A model generated the notes under the pieces. The model saw only the letters and a program-made list of their open reading frames with translations. It searched no databases and was not told the DNA's origin. A DNA stretch of 64,000 nucleotides, taken from Leucobacter triazinivorans. GTDB taxonomy: Bacteria; Actinomycetota; Actinomycetes; Actinomycetales; Microbacteriaceae. Each line of letters begins with the position of its first letter. The first letter of the stretch is position 1. This document shows positions 19,145-31,815 of this stretch, piece by piece. A program made the translations under genes and the position numbers. The DNA lies in NCBI RefSeq assembly GCF_004208635.1, contig NZ_CP035806.1:620001-684000 (forward strand). Direction: 5' to 3'.

Positions 19145-20083
19145 TCACGACTCCGAGAAGGTGCGCCGGTACTCCGTCGGGGTGGTCCCGAGCACGCGCC
19201 GGAAGTAGCGCCGCAGATTGGTCGCGGTGCCGAGACCGACCGTCGCGGCGATCTCCTCGATCGCGAGATCCGTCTCCTCGAGCAGCTCGCGGGCCCGGTC
19301 GACGCGCGCCCGCATGATCCACTGCATCGGCGTATAGCCGGTCTCATCGCGGAATCGGCGGGAGAAGGTGCGTGGAGACACGCTCGCATGCCCCGCGAGG
19401 CGCTCGATCGTCAGGGGCTCGCCGAGGCGGCGCAGGGCCCACTCCCGCGTGCGCGTGAAACGCTCCCCGTGCGACTCCGGGACGCTCTGGGGCACGTACT
19501 GGGCCTGGCCGCCGCTGCGATACGGCGCGGCGACAAGGCGCCGGGCCGCATGATTCGCGCCGGCCACCCCCGCCTCCTTGCGCAGGATGTGCAGGCAGAG
19601 ATCGATCCCCGACGCCGCCCCGGCCGAGGTGAGCACGGATCCCTCGTCGACGAAGAGCACGCGGTCGTCCACCTGCACCTGCGGGTAGCGCTCCGCGAGG
19701 CTCCGGGCGTAGTGCCAGTGCGTCGTGGCGCGGCGGCCGTCGAGCAGTCCCGTCTCGGCGAGCGCGAAGGCGCCGGTCGAGATCGCGGCGAGCCGTGCCC
19801 CGCGCTCATGCGCGCGCTGCAGCGCGCGGGTGAGCGCCTCCGGCGGACGCTCGCGATCCGGATACCGGTATCCCGGCACGAACACGAGGTCCGCCTCCTC
19901 CAGCGCCTCGAGCCCGTGCGCGACGTGATATGACAGGCCGTCGCCGCCGGCGATGAGCCCGGGCCGTACCCCGCAGACGTCGACGGAGTAGGGCATGCTG
20001 GCACGGGTCGTGAAGACCTGGGCCGGGATGCCGACGTCGAGAGGCTTCGCCCCCTCGAGCACGACGACTGCGACTCGCCTCAT
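19145..20083 (-). CDS. GlxA-type AraC family transcriptional regulator
   Basis: Protein of 312 residues. The N-terminal DJ-1/PfpI domain (about 3-165) keeps the fold, but the nucleophile elbow reads AISTGAFALAETGLL without Cys, so it is a sensor and not an enzyme. The C-terminal AraC double HTH (about 215-305) has LAGHASVSPRTFSRRFRDETG and EEIAATVGLGTATNLRRYFRR. The ligand is unknown; the nearest possible targets are gap and the divergent HerA-like gene. A TACACT box ends 8 nt before the ATG, a leaderless-type layout. Confidence 0.88.
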   Translation of the reverse strand: MRRVAVVVLEGAKPLDVGIPAQVFTTRASMPYSVDVCGVRPGLIAGGDGLSYHVAHGLEALEEADLVFVPGYRYPDRERPPEALTRALQRAHERGARLAAISTGAFALAETGLLDGRRATTHWHYARSLAERYPQVQVDDRVLFVDEGSVLTSAGAASGIDLCLHILRKEAGVAGANHAARRLVAAPYRSGGQAQYVPQSVPESHGERFTRTREWALRRLGEPLTIERLAGHASVSPRTFSRRFRDETGYTPMQWIMRARVDRARELLEETDLAIEEIAATVGLGTATNLRRYFRRVLGTTPTEYRRTFSES

Positions 20084-20097: not shown

Positions 20098-20119
20098 TCG
20101 GGGCGCTCCTCCGCCCTCG

Positions 20120-20125
20120 TAAGAT
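20120..20125 (+). promoter_or_regulatory. -10 box of a leaderless promoter (HerA-like gene)
   Basis: TAAGAT, then GGGGCC, then ATG. Gap of 6 nt. Confidence 0.5.
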
Positions 20126-20131
20126 GGGGCC

Positions 20132-21250
20132 ATGCCCGCACAGATGCCCATCGGCACTCGACTCGCCAGCGCCGATGCCGAACCGCTCGTCGACACCGGG
20201 GAGCCGGCCGCACTGCACGCGCCGCGCCTCAACCGCCACACGTTCTGGTGCGGGCAGAGCGGCTCCGGCAAGACCTACGCCCTGGGCGTGCTGCTCGAGC
20301 AGGTGCTGCTGCACACGCGACTCCCGATCGTGGTGCTCGATCCCAACTCCGATTTCGTCCACCTGGGCAGTGTGCACGAGGGCACCTCTGAAGAGGCTGC
20401 GGCGGAGCTCGCGCAGCGCGATATCCGGGTGCTGCACTCGGCACCGCCGCGCGACGGCGACGGCGACCGGCTGCGCGTGCGCTTCGTCGACATGGACGTG
20501 AGATCCCGCGCTGCGGTGCTGCAGATGGATCCCGTGCGCGACGCCGACGACTTCAACGCGGTGCTGCGCGTCGAGGCCGACTTGCTCAACCACCTCGACC
20601 GCCCGCTCGTCGAGTGGCTGCGCGAGAGCGGCGACCCTTCGGCGGATCGGATCGCAACGCTGCTCGAGAATCTCGGCATCTCCGACTGGGATCTCTGGGC
20701 CTACGGCGAGCGCGACGTCACCGACGTGATCAACGACCGGGCCGATGCGACGGTGGTCGACCTCGGCCGCTTCTCGTCGGCGGAGCAGATGCGCACGGCC
20801 GCGCTCGCCGTGCTCGACCGGCTGTGGGCGCAGCGCGAGGAGCGCGTCGGGCGCCTCATCGTGATCGACGAGGCGCACAATCTCTGCTCCCCCGACGCCG
20901 CAACGCCGCTCGAGCGCCTGCTCGCGGAACGCATCATCCAGATCGCGGCCGAGGGCCGCAAGTACGGCATCTGGCTGCTGCTGTCGACGCAGCGCCCGTC
21001 GAAGCTCCACCCGAACGTCATCTCGCAGTGCGACAACCTCGCACTCATGAAGATGAGCTCGGCGAGGGATCTCGCGGAACTGGCTCAGATCTTCGGGTTC
21101 GCGCCCCAGGATCTGCTGGAGCGCGCCCCGTCGTTCGCGCAGGGCCAAGCGCTCTTCGCCGGCGGCTTCTCACCCGAGCCGCAGCTCGTGCAGATGGGGG
21201 CCCGCCTCACGCGGGAGGGCGGCTCGGACGTGCCGATCGAACTCCGCTGA
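20132..21250 (+). CDS. HerA/VirB4-like AAA ATPase (helicase HerA central domain)
   Basis: Protein of 372 residues with Walker A GQSGSGKT (41-48), Walker B LIVIDEAHN (about 241-249), a sensor-like LLLSTQRPSKLHPNVISQCDNLALMKM segment and an arginine-rich C-terminus. This is the FtsK/HerA superfamily core without a clear HAS barrel or transmembrane part, so it should be a soluble hexameric DNA-pumping or remodelling ATPase. No NurA nuclease or conjugation genes are adjacent. It could be part of an orphan DNA-processing or defence function; its real role is unknown. Leaderless promoter. Confidence 0.8.
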   Translation: MPAQMPIGTRLASADAEPLVDTGEPAALHAPRLNRHTFWCGQSGSGKTYALGVLLEQVLLHTRLPIVVLDPNSDFVHLGSVHEGTSEEAAAELAQRDIRVLHSAPPRDGDGDRLRVRFVDMDVRSRAAVLQMDPVRDADDFNAVLRVEADLLNHLDRPLVEWLRESGDPSADRIATLLENLGISDWDLWAYGERDVTDVINDRADATVVDLGRFSSAEQMRTAALAVLDRLWAQREERVGRLIVIDEAHNLCSPDAATPLERLLAERIIQIAAEGRKYGIWLLLSTQRPSKLHPNVISQCDNLALMKMSSARDLAELAQIFGFAPQDLLERAPSFAQGQALFAGGFSPEPQLVQMGARLTREGGSDVPIELR

Positions 21251-21315
21251 ACCGGACGGCGCGTCGGGCCGCGGCAGGGCCGTGAGCGGCTGCGCACATC
21301 GGGGGCGCGAATGCG

Positions 21316-22677
21316 CTACGGGTGCAATGGACGGATGAGCCGATGCCCGACCGCACGCCGACGCTCCGCGGACCAGAGCGCGATGCGCAGATCGACGGCG
21401 CCCATCGGCGACAGCGGATCCCGACCGCTCAGCTCGCGAATGCGCTTCAGCCTGTGCCGCACCGTGTTGACGTGCACGAACAACCGATCCGCGGTCTCCT
21501 GCAGGCGCTGATCCGAGGCGAGGAAGGCCGCGAGAGTCTTCACGAGGTCCCCGCGTCCGAGCTCATCGGCCTCGACGATCGGGGTCATCAACTGCTCGAT
21601 GAAGGGGTCGAGCCGCTCGCTGGGCTGCTGTTCGAGGAGCGCCCCGAGCGATGCCAGCTGACTGGGCCCGGCCACGCCTCCCCGGCTTCGCGCGAGCCGC
21701 AGCGCCGACCTCGACTCGTTGAGGGCGCGCCGCAGTTCACCGATCTCCACCACGGAGCTGAATCCGCACACGAGTCCGAGTTCACGCAACGAGGTCTCGG
21801 ATCCCGGTGCGTCGATCACCAGGACCTCGTGCGCGGTGACCCCGATGAGCGCGCCCTGCCAGCGACGCCCGAGCGCCCCCTCGCTTCCGCTCGGCCAGCT
21901 GGAGACCCGCAGCCGCTCCTGATCGAGCCCCCGCGACAGGATCTCCGGCAGGATCGCCGCCGGAAGCGCCAGTCCTCCGGCGATCAGATCGAGCAGCTGC
22001 CCCAGGCGCAGCTGCTGCTCGGACGACTCCCGCGCGTGCTCCAGACCGGAGAACTCGAGCACGCTCTGCAGCTGCTCGACGAACTCATCCGACACGCCGC
22101 CCGGCTCGCCCAGCCACTCGAGACCGCGATCGGATCCGGCCCGACTCAGGCGACCGCCGAGCGCTTCCCCGGCTTCCCGCAGCAGATCGTCTTCGCTCGC
22201 CCCCTCCCTGGCCGTTGCCAGGAGGCGGGAGAGCAGCGCGGTCTCCCGCTTCCTCGCCTCGCCCTCGATCTCACTCCGTCGCCTCAACACCGTGTCGTTC
22301 ACCGCCAGGAACGGCACGCCGTGATCGAGCAGCAGCAGCGGCATGCCCGCTCGCTCGCACGCCGCGACGAGCTCGCCCGGAGGTGCGAGGTGCACCTCCC
22401 CGAGTCCCAAGGCGATCCCGGCGACGCGCGCCTCCGACAGGGCTGCGACGAACGTCTCGGCAGAGCGGGGACGCACGAGCGCACTGCCCAGCGTGCAGAC
22501 GAGCTCGTGGCGGCGAAGATGCGGTCTCGGATCGATCTGTTCGGTCGCGTGCACCCAGGAGATCCGGCGCGCTGCTGCCCCCTCCGGCAGGACAGCCGCC
22601 GTGATCTCGAGCGTGCCGTCCGTGATCAGGTCGCCTATCGTGACGAGCGCGCCAGACGCCGCAGCATCGAGGATCAT
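21316..22677 (-). CDS. PucR family transcriptional regulator
   Basis: Protein of 453 residues. The N-terminal PucR sensor domain (about 12-130) is followed by a GGDEF-like middle and a C-terminal helix-turn-helix, TLAAFLASDQRLQETADRLFVHVNTVRHRLKRI, typical of PucR/CdaR activators. It is divergent from the permease-SDR-SDR-ureohydrolase-deacetylase cluster and is the obvious regulator of it. PucR proteins commonly sense purine-breakdown or amino-acid-like catabolites. The ATG at 22675-22677 has a TACAAT -10 box exactly 6 nt upstream. Confidence 0.88.
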   Translation of the reverse strand: MILDAAASGALVTIGDLITDGTLEITAAVLPEGAAARRISWVHATEQIDPRPHLRRHELVCTLGSALVRPRSAETFVAALSEARVAGIALGLGEVHLAPPGELVAACERAGMPLLLLDHGVPFLAVNDTVLRRRSEIEGEARKRETALLSRLLATAREGASEDDLLREAGEALGGRLSRAGSDRGLEWLGEPGGVSDEFVEQLQSVLEFSGLEHARESSEQQLRLGQLLDLIAGGLALPAAILPEILSRGLDQERLRVSSWPSGSEGALGRRWQGALIGVTAHEVLVIDAPGSETSLRELGLVCGFSSVVEIGELRRALNESRSALRLARSRGGVAGPSQLASLGALLEQQPSERLDPFIEQLMTPIVEADELGRGDLVKTLAAFLASDQRLQETADRLFVHVNTVRHRLKRIRELSGRDPLSPMGAVDLRIALWSAERRRAVGHRLIRPLHP

Positions 22678-22683
22678 GGATAG

Positions 22684-22700
22684 ATTGTACCTTCATACAA
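22684..22700 (-). promoter_or_regulatory. pucR leaderless promoter with overlapping palindrome
   Basis: TACAAT (22684-22689, minus strand) lies 6 nt before the pucR ATG and overlaps the inverted repeat TTGTA-N6-TACAA (22685-22700). This suggests autoregulation or a shared operator for the divergent cluster. Confidence 0.5.
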
Positions 22701-22802
22701 CCATTTCGGCGCAAGTTAGAGGTACTTCCCCTTGTAGTCACACCAAGAGTGGAGAAGTGCATAATGATTGCGTTCGCCTCGTCCTGGCCAAAGGAGACCA
22801 TC

Positions 22803-24296
22803 TTGACTACGAGCACCGCTCGCCCGGCAGCGGGCACGAACACGCTGCGCAGAGAGTTCAGCTTCGGCGCCGCATTCGCCTTCGCGTTCGCATTCATCTC
22901 CCCGATCGTTGCGCTCTACGGCATCTTCGGTCTCGCCATCGCCACCGCGGGGCCCTCGTTCTGGTGGGGCTTCCTGATCGTCTTCGCCGGGCAGTTCCTC
23001 GTGGCGCTGGTCTTCGCGATGCTGGTCTCGAAGTGGCCGCTCGAGGGGTCGATCTACCAGTGGGCCAACCGTCTGCTGGGCGCAGGATTCGGCTGGTTCG
23101 CGGGCTGGTTCTACATCTGGACACTGGTGATCGCCATGGCCACGGTCGCGCTGGGAGCCGCGGGGTTCATCGCGAACATCATCGGCATGCACGGCGCGAG
23201 CGGCACCCAGATCGCACTGATCGCGTTCATCGTCCTGGTGCTCGGCACCGTGATCAATCTCTCGGGTCGCGGGATCCTCAAGGGGTTCATGATCGCGAGC
23301 ATCATTGCGGAAGTCATCGGCTCCATCGGGCTGGGAATCTGGCTGCTCATCGCGCACCGCGAGCACGACCTCTCGATCCTGTTCGACGGAGGAGCGAGCA
23401 TCGGCGCGTCGGAGGGGTTCTTCTCGCTCGGAGGCCCGTTCCTGCTCGCGATCGTGTTCATCGGATTCTCCTTCGTCGGATTCGAGAGCGCAGGGTCGAT
23501 CGCCGAGGAGGTCCACGAGCCCCGCCGCAATCTGCCGAAGGCCGTGCTCTTCTCGATCAGCTTCATCGCCGCGGTCGTCATGTTCTCGAGCCTCGCGATC
23601 ATCCTCGCAACGCCGGAGAACGCCACCGAGCTCCCCGACTACGACGTGGATCCGGTATACGCCGTGCTCACCGCGCAGCTGGGCTCGCACCTCGCGATCC
23701 CCATCCAGGCGCTCTTCGCCATCGGTTTCGTGGCCAGCTTCCTCGCCCTCCAGACCTCCGCCTCCCGCCTCATCTGGGCCAAGGCGCGAGATCGCGCACT
23801 GCCGTTCTCGAACGCGCTGTCGCGGCTCAGCCGCACGCAGCGCCAGCCCGTGGGCCCGATCCTCATCACCACGGCGATCGGCACCGCCCTCTTCCTCCTG
23901 AGCAACGTCGCCGAGAACCTGTACACGATGATGGTGAACTTCACCTCGGGCGGCTTCTACCTGAGCTTCCTCTTCCCCGTGTTCGCGTTCGCCGTCGCCG
24001 TGGTGCGCCGGCGCTGGCGCCCCGGGCCGTTCTCGATCGGCCGGTGGACCGGAGTCGTCGCGATCGCCGCACTGGTGTGGGTGGTGCTCGAGCTCGTGAA
24101 CATCGCCTGGCCCCGCGCGGTCAACGGCAACACCTGGCTCGACTGGTCGGTGATCCTGGGCGCAGCGGCGCTCACGATCGTGGGCGGGGTGATCTATGCG
24201 CGCGTACGCGGTCGGATCGAGAATGTCGAGACGTCAGCGGTGGTCGTCGATGCAGATGCGGGCGATGCGGCGCGGGATCTCGAGGAGCCGCGATGA
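22803..24296 (+). CDS. APC superfamily amino acid/amine permease
   Basis: Protein of about 497 residues with 12 predicted membrane helices (N-terminal FSFGAAFAFAFAFISPIVALYG; GFSFVGFESAGSIAEEVHEP is the APC helix 6/loop signature). It imports an amino acid, amine or related solute by proton symport. A TTG start at 22803-22805 is chosen because AAAGGAG lies exactly 6 nt upstream; the in-frame upstream ATG has no ribosome site. First gene of a five-gene cluster whose later members suggest a guanidino- or amide-type substrate. The stop overlaps the next ATG. Confidence 0.9.
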   Translation: MTTSTARPAAGTNTLRREFSFGAAFAFAFAFISPIVALYGIFGLAIATAGPSFWWGFLIVFAGQFLVALVFAMLVSKWPLEGSIYQWANRLLGAGFGWFAGWFYIWTLVIAMATVALGAAGFIANIIGMHGASGTQIALIAFIVLVLGTVINLSGRGILKGFMIASIIAEVIGSIGLGIWLLIAHREHDLSILFDGGASIGASEGFFSLGGPFLLAIVFIGFSFVGFESAGSIAEEVHEPRRNLPKAVLFSISFIAAVVMFSSLAIILATPENATELPDYDVDPVYAVLTAQLGSHLAIPIQALFAIGFVASFLALQTSASRLIWAKARDRALPFSNALSRLSRTQRQPVGPILITTAIGTALFLLSNVAENLYTMMVNFTSGGFYLSFLFPVFAFAVAVVRRRWRPGPFSIGRWTGVVAIAALVWVVLELVNIAWPRAVNGNTWLDWSVILGAAALTIVGGVIYARVRGRIENVETSAVVVDADAGDAARDLEEPR

Positions 24297-24985
24297 GCCG
24301 GGTCGCAGTGGTGACGGGCGCCGCAGGGGGCGTGGGATCCGCCGTATCGCGACGACTGCGCGGCGCCGGGTGGCTGGTCGCCGGCGTGGATCGCGCACCG
24401 GCCCCCGGCGCCGATCTCTCGCTGCCGTTCGACGTGTCGGATCACCGCGAATTCGCGGCCGCCGTCGTATCGGTCGAGCGAGAGCTCGGCCCGGTCGACG
24501 CGCTGGTGAGCGCCGCGGGGCACTATGAGAGCATTCCCTTCGCTGAAGTGACCGATGACCAGGCCGAGCGGATGCTGCGGGTGCACCTGGGCGGGTTCTT
24601 CGCGGGATCCCGCGCGGTGCTGCCCGCGATGCTCGAACGCGGTACCGGCGCCATCGTCGCGATCGCGAGCGAGCTGGCGGTCGGGGGCGGCGCGCGGGAT
24701 TCGCACTACGCCGCGGCGAAGGGAGCGGTGCTCGGCGCGGCGAAGAGCCTCGCCGCCGAGGTCGCCCCCGCGGGGATCCGCGTGAACGCGGTGGCGCCCG
24801 GGCCGACCGACACCCCCATGCTGCCACCGGATTCCCCCTGGCGCGACACGGCCTACCTCTCGACGCTGCCCGCCCGTGCGCTCGCCCATCCCGACGAGGT
24901 CGCACTGTGCGTTCACTACCTGCTCGACTCGGCCGATTTCGTCACCGGTGAGACGCTGCACCCCAATTCGGGGGCGGTGATCTGA
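24293..24985 (+). CDS. SDR family NAD(P)-dependent oxidoreductase (first of two)
   Basis: Short-chain dehydrogenase of 230 residues: cofactor motif TGAAGGVGSAV near the N-terminus, SAAGHYESIPFAEV, the active-site Ser in AIASELAVGGG, and Tyr/Lys in HYAAAKGAVLGAAKS (YxxxK). C-terminal VTGETLHPNSGAVI. Oxidises or reduces a hydroxyl or carbonyl group on an unknown substrate. The ATG overlaps the permease stop (ATGA) and its own stop overlaps the next SDR start, so the cluster is one operon. Confidence 0.87.
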   Translation: MSRVAVVTGAAGGVGSAVSRRLRGAGWLVAGVDRAPAPGADLSLPFDVSDHREFAAAVVSVERELGPVDALVSAAGHYESIPFAEVTDDQAERMLRVHLGGFFAGSRAVLPAMLERGTGAIVAIASELAVGGGARDSHYAAAKGAVLGAAKSLAAEVAPAGIRVNAVAPGPTDTPMLPPDSPWRDTAYLSTLPARALAHPDEVALCVHYLLDSADFVTGETLHPNSGAVI

Positions 24986-25773
24986 TGGCGCCGCTCTCCA
25001 CCTCACCGTCCTCCATTCTGCAGGGATCGAGCGCACTGGTCACGGGCGCCGCCGGCGGCCTCGGAGCGGCCCAGACGGCTGCGCTCGCCTCCGCGGGCGC
25101 CCGCGTGCTCGCCCACGCCCGGTCGCGTGGAGCAGCGCTGCAGGCCGTTCTCGAAGCGACCGGCGCGACCGGTCTCACGAAGGATCTGAGCACGCCCGAG
25201 GCGTGCCGCGAGCTGATCCGGGACGCCGTCGCCGCAGCAGGACGACTCGACGTCCTGGTCGCCAACCACGCCACCATGACGATGGGTCCGCTCGTGGACG
25301 CGGATCCCGCGGACTGGTGGCGCGTCGCGCACACCAATCTCCTCGGGACGTTCGCCATGATCCAAGAGGCCGTTCGTGTCATGCGGGAGCAGGGCAGCGG
25401 CGGGCGGATCATCGTCATCTCGAGCGAATGGGGCGTCATCGGCTGGCCCGAGGCCACCGCCTACGCGGCGTCGAAGGCCGGACTCATCTCACTCGTGAAG
25501 TGCCTCGGGCACGAACTCGCCCCGGAGGGCATCATCGTCAACGCGATCGCGCCGGGGGTGATCGATACCCCGCAGCTGAACGTCGACGCCGACGCCGCGG
25601 GCATCCCGCTCGGAGAGATGCACGATCGGTACGCCGAAGGCATCCCGCTCGGCCGCATCGGTCGCGCCGACGAAGTGGCCGCTGCGGTGGCATTCCTCGC
25701 CGACCCCGCGCTGCGCACCATGGTCGGGCAGACCATCCAGGTGAACGGCGGCTCGACCCGCAGCCGGGTCTGA
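24985..25773 (+). CDS. SDR family NAD(P)-dependent oxidoreductase (second of two)
   Basis: Short-chain dehydrogenase of 262 residues: VTGAAGGLGAAQ cofactor loop, VANHATMTMGPL (NNAG equivalent), active-site Ser in VISSEWGVIG, and YAASKAGL (YxxxK). C-terminal GQTIQVNGGSTRSRV. It differs clearly in sequence from the preceding SDR, so the pair probably performs two successive or alternative redox steps rather than being a recent duplication. Start overlaps the previous stop (TGATG). Confidence 0.87.
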   Translation: MAPLSTSPSSILQGSSALVTGAAGGLGAAQTAALASAGARVLAHARSRGAALQAVLEATGATGLTKDLSTPEACRELIRDAVAAAGRLDVLVANHATMTMGPLVDADPADWWRVAHTNLLGTFAMIQEAVRVMREQGSGGRIIVISSEWGVIGWPEATAYAASKAGLISLVKCLGHELAPEGIIVNAIAPGVIDTPQLNVDADAAGIPLGEMHDRYAEGIPLGRIGRADEVAAAVAFLADPALRTMVGQTIQVNGGSTRSRV

Positions 25774-25779
25774 CGTCGA

Positions 25780-25785
25780 TAGACT
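25780..25785 (+). promoter_or_regulatory. candidate internal -10 box before the ureohydrolase gene
   Basis: TAGACT 24 nt before the GTG start. It would give a leader of about 18 nt containing AGGA. An internal promoter could uncouple ureohydrolase expression from the upstream genes. Confidence 0.35.
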
Positions 25786-25809
25786 GCATCAAGAGAACAG
25801 GATCCTCCA

Positions 25810-26769
25810 GTGACCACCAGCTCCCCCGCCCCCGTCCCTCCGATCGACGGACAGAGGTCTCCGCGCTACGCGGGCTTCACGACCTTCGCCAGACTGCCCC
25901 GGATCGGAGACGCACCGCAGCACGACGTCGCGGTCGTCGGGGTGCCGTTCGACACCGGCGTCACCTTCCGCCCGGGCGCTCGATTCGGTCCGGGCGCCAT
26001 CCGCGAGGCGTCCCGCCTGCTCCGCCCCTACAACCCGGCGCTCGACGTCGCTCCGTTCGACTCGGTGCAGGTCGTGGACGCGGGTGATGTCGACTGCAAT
26101 CCGTTCGACATCACCACGGCGCTCCGCGAGATCGAGGCAGGCGTCGCGGCGCTGACCGAGGGGGGTCGCCCGGTCGTGGTGCTGGGCGGAGACCACACCA
26201 TCGCGCTCGCCTCGCTCCGCGCCCTGCACCGCGAGCACGGACCGATGGCGCTCGTGCATTTCGATGCGCACCTCGACACCTGGGGGCCGTACTTCGACAC
26301 GCCGGTCACGCACGGCACCCCGTTCCGGGTGGCCATCGAAGAGGGGCTGCTGCTCAAGGAGCACTCCGCGCACGTGGGGATCCGCGGTTCGCTCTACAGC
26401 GCGGAGGACCTCACCGACGATGCCGAACTCGGCTTCACCATCGTGCACGCGCGCGAGTTCCACACGACGCCGTTCACCGAGATCATCGAGCGCATCAGCA
26501 GCCGGGTCGGCGACGCTCCGCTCTACATCTCCATCGACATCGACGTGCTGGATCCCGCCCACGCCCCGGGCACCGGAACGCCGGAGGCCGGAGGGCTGAC
26601 CAGTCGCGAGCTCCTCGAGCTGCTCCGCGGCCTGCGCGACAAGCACCTCGTGGGAGCGGACGTGGTCGAGGTGGCGCCGGCCTACGATCATGCGAGCATC
26701 ACGGCGGTCGCAGCGGCCCACTGCGCCTACGACCTGGTGTCGATCATGAGCGGTCGTGTGAGCGCATGA
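25810..26769 (+). CDS. agmatinase/guanidinobutyrase-family ureohydrolase
   Basis: Mn-dependent ureohydrolase of 319 residues that splits urea from a guanidino compound. All family metal motifs are present: GGDHT (about 126), HFDAHLDT (about 150) and [19 protein letters not shown] (about 240). The fold is that of agmatinase, guanidinobutyrase and guanidinopropionase; the substrate among these (or an unlisted guanidino acid) cannot be told by eye. GTG start at 25810-25812. Neighbours (APC permease, two dehydrogenases, amide-type hydrolase) fit uptake and degradation of a modified guanidino compound. No urease is seen in the window. Confidence 0.9.
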
Positions 26770-27719
26770 CCCGACTCGCGGCGACCGGGTCGCCGGACCC
26801 GCCGATCGGCTGGCCCGGCACTGCGCGTTGCGCGGCCTCCTTCTCGTTCGACGTCGACGGCGAGTCGGCCGCTCTCGCTGCGGCGCCGGCCACCGCCCGG
26901 AGCATGAGCGCGATGACGCATCAGGCGTACGGACCTCGCGTCGGCGTGCGCCGGATCCTCGACATCCTCGAGCGAACGGGCGTGCGCAGCACCTTCTTCG
27001 TTCCGGGGCTGACCGCCGATCTGCATCCCCGCGCCGTGCGCGACATCGCGGCTGCCGGGCACGAGATCGCCCACCACGGCTACCATCATCTGAAGCCGAG
27101 CGGTCTGAGTCCTGTCGAACAGGCCGAGCAGTTGGATCGCGGCAGCGATGCGCTGGAGCGCCTCACCGGCGAACGACCGGTCGGATATCGCGCACCGATG
27201 TGGGATCTCTCGTGGGAGATGCCCGAGCTGCTCGCGGAACGCGGCTTCCGCTACGACTCCAGCCTGATGGACGACGACTCCCCCTACGTCCTCTCGACGG
27301 CGGGCGTGCGAGGCTCGGCGGAGGCCGAGGGCCCCGCCGAGCAGACGATCGTCGAGATCCCGATCCAGTGGTCGCTCGACGACTGGGAGCAGTACTGCTT
27401 CCTGCCTGAGGTCACTGAGCTCGGCCCCATTCAGACCCCGGCGCACGCGATCGAGCTCTGGCGCAGCGAGCTCGAGGGGGTACGTCGCTTCGGCGGATGC
27501 TGGGTGCTCACCAACCACCCGTTCCTCTCGGGGCGGCCGGGCCGCGCCGCCGCACTCGAGGACCTCATCGCGGAGGTGGCGGGACTGCAGGACGTGTGGC
27601 TGGCGTCGCTGCTCGAGATCGCCGAGCACGTGGAATCGCTGGCCCCGGCACCCCGGACGATCGATCGGAGCACGCCTCGCCGATCTGAGACGGGCGGCGG
27701 CAGGCCCTCGCCGATGTGA
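26766..27719 (+). CDS. polysaccharide deacetylase-like hydrolase, HpPgdA/cyclic-imidase type
   Basis: Protein of 317 residues with a NodB/CE4 fold: motif 1 SFDVDGES, motif 2 AHHGYHH, motif 3 YRAPMWDLS, then [10 protein letters not shown] and [11 protein letters not shown]. The closest remembered relatives are H. pylori PgdA and the cyclic imide hydrolases/PuuE allantoinases, which cut C-N bonds in small molecules. No signal peptide is visible, so cell-wall deacetylation is unlikely. The start overlaps the ureohydrolase stop, so the two should act in one pathway. The substrate may be a cyclic or N-acylated intermediate. Last gene before the 3' end of ssrA. Confidence 0.82.
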
Positions 27720-27727
27720 TCGGCGAG
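27707..27727 (+). terminator. candidate terminator of the PucR cluster
   Basis: Perfect 8-bp inverted repeat CTCGCCGA-TGTGA-TCGGCGAG overlapping the stop codon of the deacetylase-like gene. Confidence 0.4.
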
Positions 27728-27834
27728 CCGCGCCGGGCCGCGGGCACTCCCGAAGCCCGGATCCCCCATCGAGGCGACGCGGTCCTGCTTCCCGCCCTCG
27801 GGGCGGCTGCTCACAGCGCGTGATGCGAATGCTC

Positions 27835-28207
27835 TGGTGGAGCCGCGGGGAATCGAACCCCGGTCCACTTCGACGATTCCGTGCCTTCTACGAGCGTAGT
27901 TCGTGCAGACGTTCTGCTCGGCCCCATCCTTTGCCACGAACACCTAGGATGACAGGCCCAGCCTCAGTGAAAGTCCCGGTGCGCCCTGAGACGCGACGCA
28001 CCAGCAAGCCCCCTTGATGACGCCAGGAAACCGGGGCGGAGGCCCACCCGACCTGACGGACTCGGTCTTACTGCTTAGGCAGCGAGAGCGAAGTCGGTGC
28101 GCTTAGCGTTGGCACCTATGGTTTGCGAAGGGCGTTTACGAGATAACTCCGCGTCCTCGGCCCGCTTCTCACAGTCTCAAATCGACGTGTCGAAACCGAT
28201 CGGCCCC
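27835..28207 (-). ncRNA. ssrA: transfer-messenger RNA (tmRNA)
   Basis: About 373 nt on the minus strand. The 5' end GGGGCCGATCGGTTTCGACA pairs with the 3' CGGCTCC-ACCA to form the tRNA-like acceptor, and the T-arm is GGGGTTCGATTCCCC. The tag reading frame at 28075-28113 encodes ANAKRTDFALAA and then TAA, the expected actinobacterial proteolysis tag. It rescues stalled ribosomes together with SmpB, whose gene is 3.7 kb upstream instead of adjacent. The 3' end faces the last gene of the PucR cluster. Confidence 0.96.
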
Positions 28208-28456: not shown

Positions 28457-29098
28457 TCAGAGCCGGCTGCGCACCGCGGCGCGCAGCTCCCCCGCCTCGA
28501 GTCCGAGAGCCCACGCGCAGACGTCGACGACGAACCGCTTGTAAGCCTCGTGTTCGAACGGCGTAGTGTTGTTCGCGTACGTGCCGAATCCATCGACCGC
28601 CATGAAGATGCGCACACAGGCGCCGAGCACATCGTCGACCACGAACGCGCCCTCGGCCGCCCCGTCCTCGATCAGCTCGGTCAACAGAGCACGGTCGAGG
28701 GCCTCCTGCCGCTCGATGGCGTCGACGAGGGCCGGCATGAAGCGGGCGAGGTGGCGCGCGTTGAGCCAGAGCCTCGCGAGCTCGACCGCCTCCTCCGACT
28801 CGACCCGGCGCACGAATCCGATCAGTCGCTCCATCGCGGTGCCGCGAGCGCTGAAGAGCCACTCGCGCTCCGTCGTGATGGCGAGCTCGAACGCCGCGAT
28901 CACGAGATCCTCCGCGGCGGGGAAATAGTGACTGATCAGCCCCGGTCTCACCCCGAGGCGCTCGGCGACCGCGCGCAGCGTGATCCGCTCGAGACCGTCC
29001 TCGAGGGCGATCCGCGCCGCCTCGGCGAGGATCTCCGCGCGACGCTCCTCGGGCGGTTTGCGCACCCTCGGAGCCTTCCGGCTTGACACCGCATCCAT
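28457..29098 (-). CDS. TetR family transcriptional regulator
   Basis: Regulator of 213 residues. The N-terminal HTH (about 20-65) has ILAEAARIALEDGLERITLRAVAERLGVRPGLISHYF, with a helical ligand-binding domain after it. Divergent from the NCS1 permease-hydrolase pair and so probably its repressor. I chose the ATG at 29096-29098 (MDAVSSRKAPRV) because the TACAAT -10 box ends 6 nt before it, as at other leaderless genes here; the ATG at 29102-29104 is too close to the box. Palindromes lie just upstream of the promoter. Confidence 0.88.
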   Translation of the reverse strand: MDAVSSRKAPRVRKPPEERRAEILAEAARIALEDGLERITLRAVAERLGVRPGLISHYFPAAEDLVIAAFELAITTEREWLFSARGTAMERLIGFVRRVESEEAVELARLWLNARHLARFMPALVDAIERQEALDRALLTELIEDGAAEGAFVVDDVLGACVRIFMAVDGFGTYANNTTPFEHEAYKRFVVDVCAWALGLEAGELRAAVRSRL

Positions 29099-29104
29099 CT
29101 TCAT

Positions 29105-31815
<2,711 letters not shown>

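Follow-up and report, generated by a model that had tools for sequence, protein, structure and literature searches.

Gene layout and regulation

The stretch of DNA analysed here, called the window, covers 64,000 nucleotides of Leucobacter triazinivorans (GCF_004208635.1, NZ_CP035806.1, positions 620,001-684,000, forward strand), whose 3.48-Mb genome is a single contig, and plain coordinates below are those of the window. Our subject is a locus in which a PucR-family regulator gene (21316-22677, minus strand) stands divergent from five plus-strand genes encoding an APC-superfamily permease and presumed importer (APC), two short-chain dehydrogenases (SDR1 and SDR2), a ureohydrolase (UREO), and a NodB-fold hydrolase (NODB). 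We conclude that this is a real, conserved catabolic operon: its families are all known, while the combination, and the ring-opening step that we infer for NODB, are new.

The family calls for all six proteins are Pfam matches above the Pfam cut-offs. The APC reading frame spans 22749-24296 (PF13520, 139 bits), although the ATG at 22764 is a likelier start than the GTG at 22749 because a Shine-Dalgarno-like GGAG lies upstream of it. SDR1 occupies 24293-24985 (PF00106/PF13561), SDR2 24985-25773 (PF13561/PF00106), UREO, a putative guanidino-acid hydrolase resembling 3-guanidinopropionase, 25810-26769 (PF00491, 326 bits), and NODB, a putative cyclic acylguanidine amidohydrolase, 26766-27719 (PF01522). 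The frames overlap by 4 nt at APC/SDR1, 1 nt at SDR1/SDR2, and 4 nt at UREO/NODB, with a 36-nt gap between SDR2 and UREO. This is the arrangement described in the original prediction, a model's reading of the window, which reported one divergent regulator and five tightly coupled genes with overlaps at 24293, 24985, and 26766; its APC permease, agmatinase-family ureohydrolase, and NodB-fold hydrolase are likewise borne out by the Pfam cut-offs. As it also stated, the two SDRs are unlike each other (33% identity across 175 aligned positions), and NODB appears to lack a secretion signal, with no obvious hydrophobic stretch seen by eye in its first 30 residues.

The regulator carries a ligand domain (PF07905, 66.3 bits) and a C-terminal HTH_30 domain (PF13556, 70.5 bits), both above cut-off. 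Between PucR and APC lies a conserved, imperfect 16-bp dyad, TTGTACCTTCATACAA (22685-22700, plus strand; consensus TTGTAGNTTCCTACAA), which is a candidate PucR operator and whose frequent mycobacterial form is TTGTGCGATCNTCCAA. The best site score was matched by at most 5 of 100 block shuffles in 39 of 54 PucR/APC intergenic regions and by more than 5 in the other 15, a count that overstates independence because the consensus was read from part of the scored regions, many of these belong to close relatives, and one contig is present twice (L005 and L239). Within the 3.48-Mb genome, the sole exact match to the pattern is the site at 22685-22700, and the sole other site, with 2 mismatches, lies near a reading frame that looks integrase-like by eye.

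Conservation of the gene set

A contig scan with NODB gave 263 relatives, and the best 80, that is the nearest, were kept for comparison. These loci come from Microbacteriaceae, Mycobacteriaceae, Streptomyces, Rhodococcus, Pseudonocardia, Geodermatophilaceae, and others, the closest named NODB relatives being those of Leucobacter. Of these best 80 of 263 loci, 73 bring APC, SDR1, a further SDR, UREO, and NODB together in a span of 9 kb, 71 of them on one strand; the five families singled out in the original prediction are kept together elsewhere. The second SDR is just 31-36% identical in 12 of the 80 loci, and an SDR2 match above 180 bits is found in 63. Seven loci fall short of the full set (L028, L030, L032, L037, L050, L056, and L061), including two on short contigs of 3.8 and 5.3 kb (L030 and L037, respectively). 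In 63 of the 80, a PucR match is found no more than 9 kb from NODB, and the regulator of L024, missed by BLAST, is also a PucR protein.

In draws of genomes not selected by similarity, NODB was matched at 1e-50 in 14 of 396 phylum genomes and 9 of 299 family genomes, and 17 of 54 genus genomes have such a match, with identities of at least 71% in 5 and of 38-45% in 12. The association of the gene set is more than chance; it is very strong among loci close to this one and weaker in more distant ones. The original prediction knew of no described pathway with this set, and no paper on it was found by title or abstract start in the open-licence literature.

The ureohydrolase

The best PDB relatives of UREO are GpuA (3nip, 263 bits) and GbuA (3nio, 260 bits), followed by proclavaminate amidinohydrolase and then by agmatinases. 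Residues H129, D152, H154, D156, D243, and D245, presumably the metal ligands, are invariant in all 77 aligned rows (75 loci from the best-80 set, the window's own gene, and the own genome's paralogue), in keeping with the earlier claim that all manganese ligands are present. At the position of GbuA R72, the same 77 rows carry a basic residue without exception (39 R, 38 K), and the two agmatinases aligned there have Ala (4dz4) or Trp beside a one-residue insertion (7lol). GbuA R72 is reported to form a cap over the active site of the adjacent subunit, where it could meet the substrate carboxylate, and a basic capping residue is described for both GbuA and the R105 variant of human GDAH, formerly AGMAT (PMC9772407). 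A Tyr occupies the position of GpuA Y157 and GbuA M161 in 75 of 77 rows, and these residues are reported to take part in substrate recognition (PMC10833137).

A 36-row tree places 27 actinobacterial ureohydrolases, including UREO, in one group (support 99/99) apart from two SpeB enzymes. The operon ureohydrolases of Rubrobacter and Roseovarius fall outside this group on long, unsure branches; taken at face value, this would mean that the SDR-SDR-NODB unit has joined up with ureohydrolases from different lineages. UREO itself is unlikely to be a plain agmatinase, and there is fair support for its acting on a guanidino acid.

The genome also holds a second ureohydrolase (UREO2; C1:1420990-1424726, equivalent to L112:5991-9727), 63% identical to UREO, with a SnoaL-like protein and an NCS1-type permease as neighbours and a divergent regulator that by eye is of the XRE-cupin type. 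At L071, the ureohydrolase, SnoaL-like, and NCS1-type families are joined to APC, SDR1, SDR2, and NODB.

The NodB-fold hydrolase

NODB shares a fold group with the allantoinase PuuE and is closer to it than to most deacetylases. NODB relatives lie near NCS1 permeases in L140, L143 (a fragment), L071, L089, and L091, and in L032 NODB is accompanied by an NCS1 permease, a cytosine deaminase, a CoA-acylating (methyl)malonate-semialdehyde dehydrogenase (MMSDH), an aminotransferase, and UREO, with no orthologue of SDR1 (best match 100 bits), SDR2, or APC. Because of the likeness to PuuE and the presence of relatives near nucleobase permeases or hydantoinase genes, ring opening is a likelier activity for NODB than deacetylation; of the hydrolysis of a ring or N-acyl group that had been suggested, the ring half gains from PuuE and the neighbours and the N-acyl half is less likely.

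Elsewhere, at L240:4963-10748, a 39% NODB paralogue comes after genes for hydantoinase/oxoprolinase A and B in the same row and is followed by a gene of the acyl-CoA:6-APA acyltransferase family; downstream are another member of that family and a gene for a family 5 solute-binding protein.

The permease and the dehydrogenases

The best NCBIfam match of APC is TIGR03428, 'permease, urea carboxylase system', at 186 bits, below the cut-off of 740. The catalytic triads are complete in both dehydrogenases, with S126, Y139, and K143 of SDR1 found in 75 of 75 rows and S147, Y160, and K164 of SDR2 in 64 of 64. The top PDB matches of SDR1, acetoacetyl-CoA and FabG-type reductases, are uninformative, and SDR2 had no PDB match at 1e-35, the sole limit applied.

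Downstream enzymes and the likely product

A class III aminotransferase gene (PRK06062 type, above 250 bits) lies near the operon in 5 of the 80 loci (L006, L011, L013, L014, and L032) and an MMSDH gene in 5 (L006, L011, L014, L032, and L037), so that one or both occur in 6 of the best 80 of 263, independent cases being fewer since L013 and L014 are both Cryobacterium. The names were read as family names in L006 and from Pfam in L032, and were given by similarity in the other loci. As background, 45 PRK06062 matches in 60 family genomes translate by simple arithmetic into about 0.4 expected in 80 loci. A plasmid of Rubrobacter radiotolerans has MMSDH, alanine dehydrogenase, aminotransferase, agmatinase, permease, two SDR genes, and NODB in a row, its aminotransferase matching best with another subfamily, PRK07678, and in L. 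triazinivorans itself adjacent MMSDH and aminotransferase genes (C1:2492789-2495916) are accompanied by a divergent PucR gene. Because these two enzymes fit beta-alanine and malonate semialdehyde, UREO probably releases beta-alanine, which would make 3-guanidinopropionate its substrate.

A proposed pathway and its alternatives

Our leading reading, which we offer tentatively and with some way to go before it could be called probable, is that PucR controls an operon whose enzymes break down a three-carbon-chain guanidino compound via 3-guanidinopropionate to urea and beta-alanine. Built on the gene set, its conservation, the catalytic residues, and the neighbour genes observed above, the pathway would begin with import by APC of a guanidino compound whose nature is conjecture. 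One SDR might then oxidise a hydroxyl group, giving an aldehyde whose ring closure with the guanidine would form a cyclic hemiaminal, and oxidation of this by the second might yield a cyclic acylguanidine (2-amino-5,6-dihydropyrimidin-4-one), which is the 3-guanidinopropionate lactam; both steps are again conjectural. NODB would open the ring to give 3-guanidinopropionate, a step with less support than those after it, and UREO would split this into urea and beta-alanine, which an aminotransferase and an MMSDH encoded elsewhere in the genome would carry on to acetyl-CoA, with fair support for this last step and for UREO acting on a guanidino acid. The passage from alcohol through hemiaminal to lactam is the weakest part of the proposal, a conjecture prompted by the SDR pair, the lack of an aldehyde dehydrogenase in the operon, and the ring hydrolase next in line; SDRs are known to oxidise hemiacetals to lactones, which offers an analogy for the hemiaminal step. 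The original prediction had envisaged import of a guanidino compound, two redox steps, urea release, and hydrolysis of a ring or N-acyl group, and of these it is guanidino-acid cleavage that stands fairly well, whereas the SDR steps stay conjecture. Deriving the order of steps from loci without UREO or SDRs was rejected as weak, for L028 and L143 come from genomes that encode relatives of UREO at other places, and L032 has other redox genes.

A number of observations weigh against the three-carbon pathway. No neighbour gene names the imported compound, and a source for a substrate of the 3-guanidinopropanol type is not known to us. Neither MMSDH nor the aminotransferase was found within 10 kb on either side in 74 of the 80 loci, including all the mycobacterial ones, and the candidate operator was not found before the MMSDH or UREO2 loci of the own genome, so that a link of the operator to the aminotransferase/MMSDH and UREO2 loci was rejected, their best scores (8 and 7 of 15) being at the level of shuffled sequences. 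NODB retains D29, D31, H104, H108, R142, and H251, presumably the CE4 metal and catalytic positions, in 81 of 81 rows; its NCBIfam scores with the polysaccharide deacetylase family (84.7 bits) and with PuuE (84.6 against a cut-off of 424.6 bits) are both far below cut-off; and 3qbu, titled a putative peptidoglycan deacetylase, outranks PuuE by sequence and fold. Other NODB relatives keep quite different partners. The phylum draw gave 16 match places outside the own genome, and of the 12 regions examined, three have the full set (L139, L144, and L142, the last matching the annotated Rubrobacter plasmid L090); others combine an SDR with NODB but lack UREO, and in others again NODB is on its own or has different neighbours. 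L032 does have redox genes, one for an NmrA-like NAD(P)-binding protein behind NODB and one for a zinc alcohol dehydrogenase 2.5 kb further on, and these may take the place of the SDRs. UREO scores GpuA and GbuA alike and is joined to neither in the tree, where branches among the known enzymes are long. Nor is the Tyr at the 157 position diagnostic of substrate, because Aspergillus niger 4-guanidinobutyrase is reported to have Tyr there too (PMC10833137). Finally, genes of the UREO clade stand beside thiamine pyrophosphate (TPP)-dependent decarboxylases in three loci (L215:6411-9376, L216:7367-9903, and L218:8421-10669; PF02776 and PF00205, with PF02775 in two), with an XRE-cupin-type regulator in two; these ureohydrolases possibly serve a route from 2-ketoarginine to 4-guanidinobutyrate.

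The same architecture could be at work on a four-carbon chain, with the SDRs and NODB yielding 4-guanidinobutyrate via N-amidino-2-pyrrolidinone and UREO yielding gamma-aminobutyrate from an arginine- or agmatine-derived compound. The like scores with GbuA and GpuA and the decarboxylase loci would suit such a route, as would a relative of NODB in Shinella, about 4 kb away from which a gene bears the name 5-guanidino-2-oxopentanoate decarboxylase. However, in the three decarboxylase loci UREO has no orthologue of NODB or the SDRs next to it, and the dehydrogenases near the operon match MMSDH rather than succinate-semialdehyde dehydrogenase (in L006 and Rubrobacter, and by similarity in the others), and we think the four-carbon route unlikely. 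A small chance of the same order goes to NODB being a de-N-acylase, in which case the imported substrate would be a hydroxylated guanidino compound, N-acylated or amide-linked, the SDRs would oxidise the hydroxyl, NODB would free the guanidino acid, and UREO would finish; the intact CE4 positions and the rank of 3qbu are compatible with this, and the PuuE likeness and gene neighbours point to ring opening instead.

Still less probable is a reductive, nucleobase-like route in which isocytosine or another 2-aminopyrimidine is reduced by the SDRs, with NODB in the role of a dihydropyrimidinase and UREO in that of a beta-ureidopropionase. A Nocardia NODB locus with an NADH:flavin oxidoreductase, PucR, and a cytosine permease is in its favour, together with the cytosine deaminase family gene of L032, but the redox enzymes of the operon are SDRs, a family in which reduction of ring C=C bonds is rare, and its permease is APC, not NCS1. 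Whether the ureohydrolase might be a plain agmatinase had been raised with the original prediction, and UREO does score 231 bits with the TIGR01230 agmatinase equivalog (cut-off 174.3). This model is not discriminating, since the GbuA (212) and GpuA (180.5) stretches also pass, and the invariably basic residue at the R72 position and the separate grouping of the two SpeB enzymes speak against it; that UREO is a plain agmatinase and the operon one for polyamine metabolism is very improbable.

A parallel operon in Mycolicibacterium

Twelve of the 80 loci, all Mycolicibacterium, hold a parallel operon at about 6.0-15.9 kb (L031, L036, L040, L041, L042, L044, L048, L054, L059, L067, L068, and L076). 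It comprises APC, SDR1, a different second SDR (31-36%), UREO, NODB, a Rieske oxygenase, a ferredoxin reductase (both families read in L031), PucR, and the formamidase FmdA, with a zinc-ribbon protein in most loci, and here the PucR gene lies downstream, on the operon strand. Several species, for example M. septicum and M. peregrinum, have both operon versions. A more detailed form of the three-carbon proposal would have the SDR pair take a guanidino alcohol to a cyclic acylguanidine without an aldehyde dehydrogenase, NODB (of the 3rxz clade) be the first of a new cyclic acylguanidine amidohydrolase family that feeds a dedicated 3-guanidinopropionase, and the mycobacterial branch add the Rieske oxygenase and formamidase for a modified substrate; taken as a whole, we consider this doubtful.

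Relation to known systems

Pseudomonas aeruginosa GpuA (3nip) resembles UREO as its best PDB relative, in the Tyr at the recognition position, and in forming urea and beta-alanine, the products that we would expect of UREO. UREO nevertheless falls in a separate clade, and to our knowledge the GpuA utilisation system has no SDR pair or NodB-fold enzyme. Human GDAH and GbuA are agmatinase-family guanidino-acid hydrolases, whereas UREO is encoded together with SDRs and NODB. PuuE (3cl6) also differs, in that NODB is far under its family cut-off and the operon has no purine gene. In creatinine breakdown, a cyclic acylguanidine is opened to creatine and urea is then split off to leave sarcosine, a logic like that proposed here, but its enzymes, creatininase and creatinase, belong to families unlike the operon's, no SDRs take part, and the product of the present operon is probably beta-alanine. 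Reductive pyrimidine catabolism ends, as proposed here, in beta-alanine, an aminotransferase, and malonate-semialdehyde dehydrogenase; the operon route would differ from it in releasing urea rather than carbamate and in using SDRs rather than a flavin reductase and a NodB fold rather than dihydropyrimidinase.

The current names of the operon genes and their relatives, agmatinase and polysaccharide deacetylase, are both probably misleading. If true, the proposal would give a function to the NodB clade of 3rxz, a structure released in 2011 and still called functionally uncharacterised in 2024, would identify an actinobacterial ureohydrolase clade as guanidino-acid hydrolases, and would point to an unknown guanidine compound met often enough for these bacteria to keep and exchange the operon. 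The prediction is testable with four proteins.

Genomic context

The operon occupies the slot between the 3' end of the tmRNA gene (ssrA, 27835-28207, minus strand; RF00023, 161 bits) and a reading frame at 19145-20083 that by eye encodes a GATase/AraC-type regulator. The slot at 20101-27813 does not align to same-genus relatives (L221, L223, and L226 over the operon slot), and that of L221 has instead Zn-ADH, AKR, TrkH-like, NhaA-like, and carboxylesterase-like reading frames (by eye); the slot adjoining the tmRNA 3' end is variable within Leucobacter. Recent integration at the tmRNA gene was considered and rejected: the first 14-25 bases at the tmRNA 3' end are not exactly repeated anywhere in the window, and the GC content does not differ (69.3% vs 69.5%). 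The four other genus copies of NODB at 71% identity or more are sited elsewhere, away from the tmRNA gene, and one of them (L239) is the L. massiliensis contig already counted as L005. UREO, APC, and PucR adjoin NODB in all four, and the SDRs were recognised in three, the SDR frames of L237 not having been called by the ORF script. Because its presence is patchy and its location changes, the data suggest that the operon has been gained and lost by transfer.

Between the tmRNA gene and smpB, the window also carries TetR, NCS1 permease, and beta-lactamase-family hydrolase genes (28457-31815). The NCS1 permease (29153-30640) was considered as a member of the system and excluded because this block is kept beside tmRNA/smpB in five of six same-genus regions (L221, L222, L223, L225, and L226, in two pieces in the last, and not L224), among them L221, L223, and L226, in which the operon does not align; the block looks like part of the genus core.

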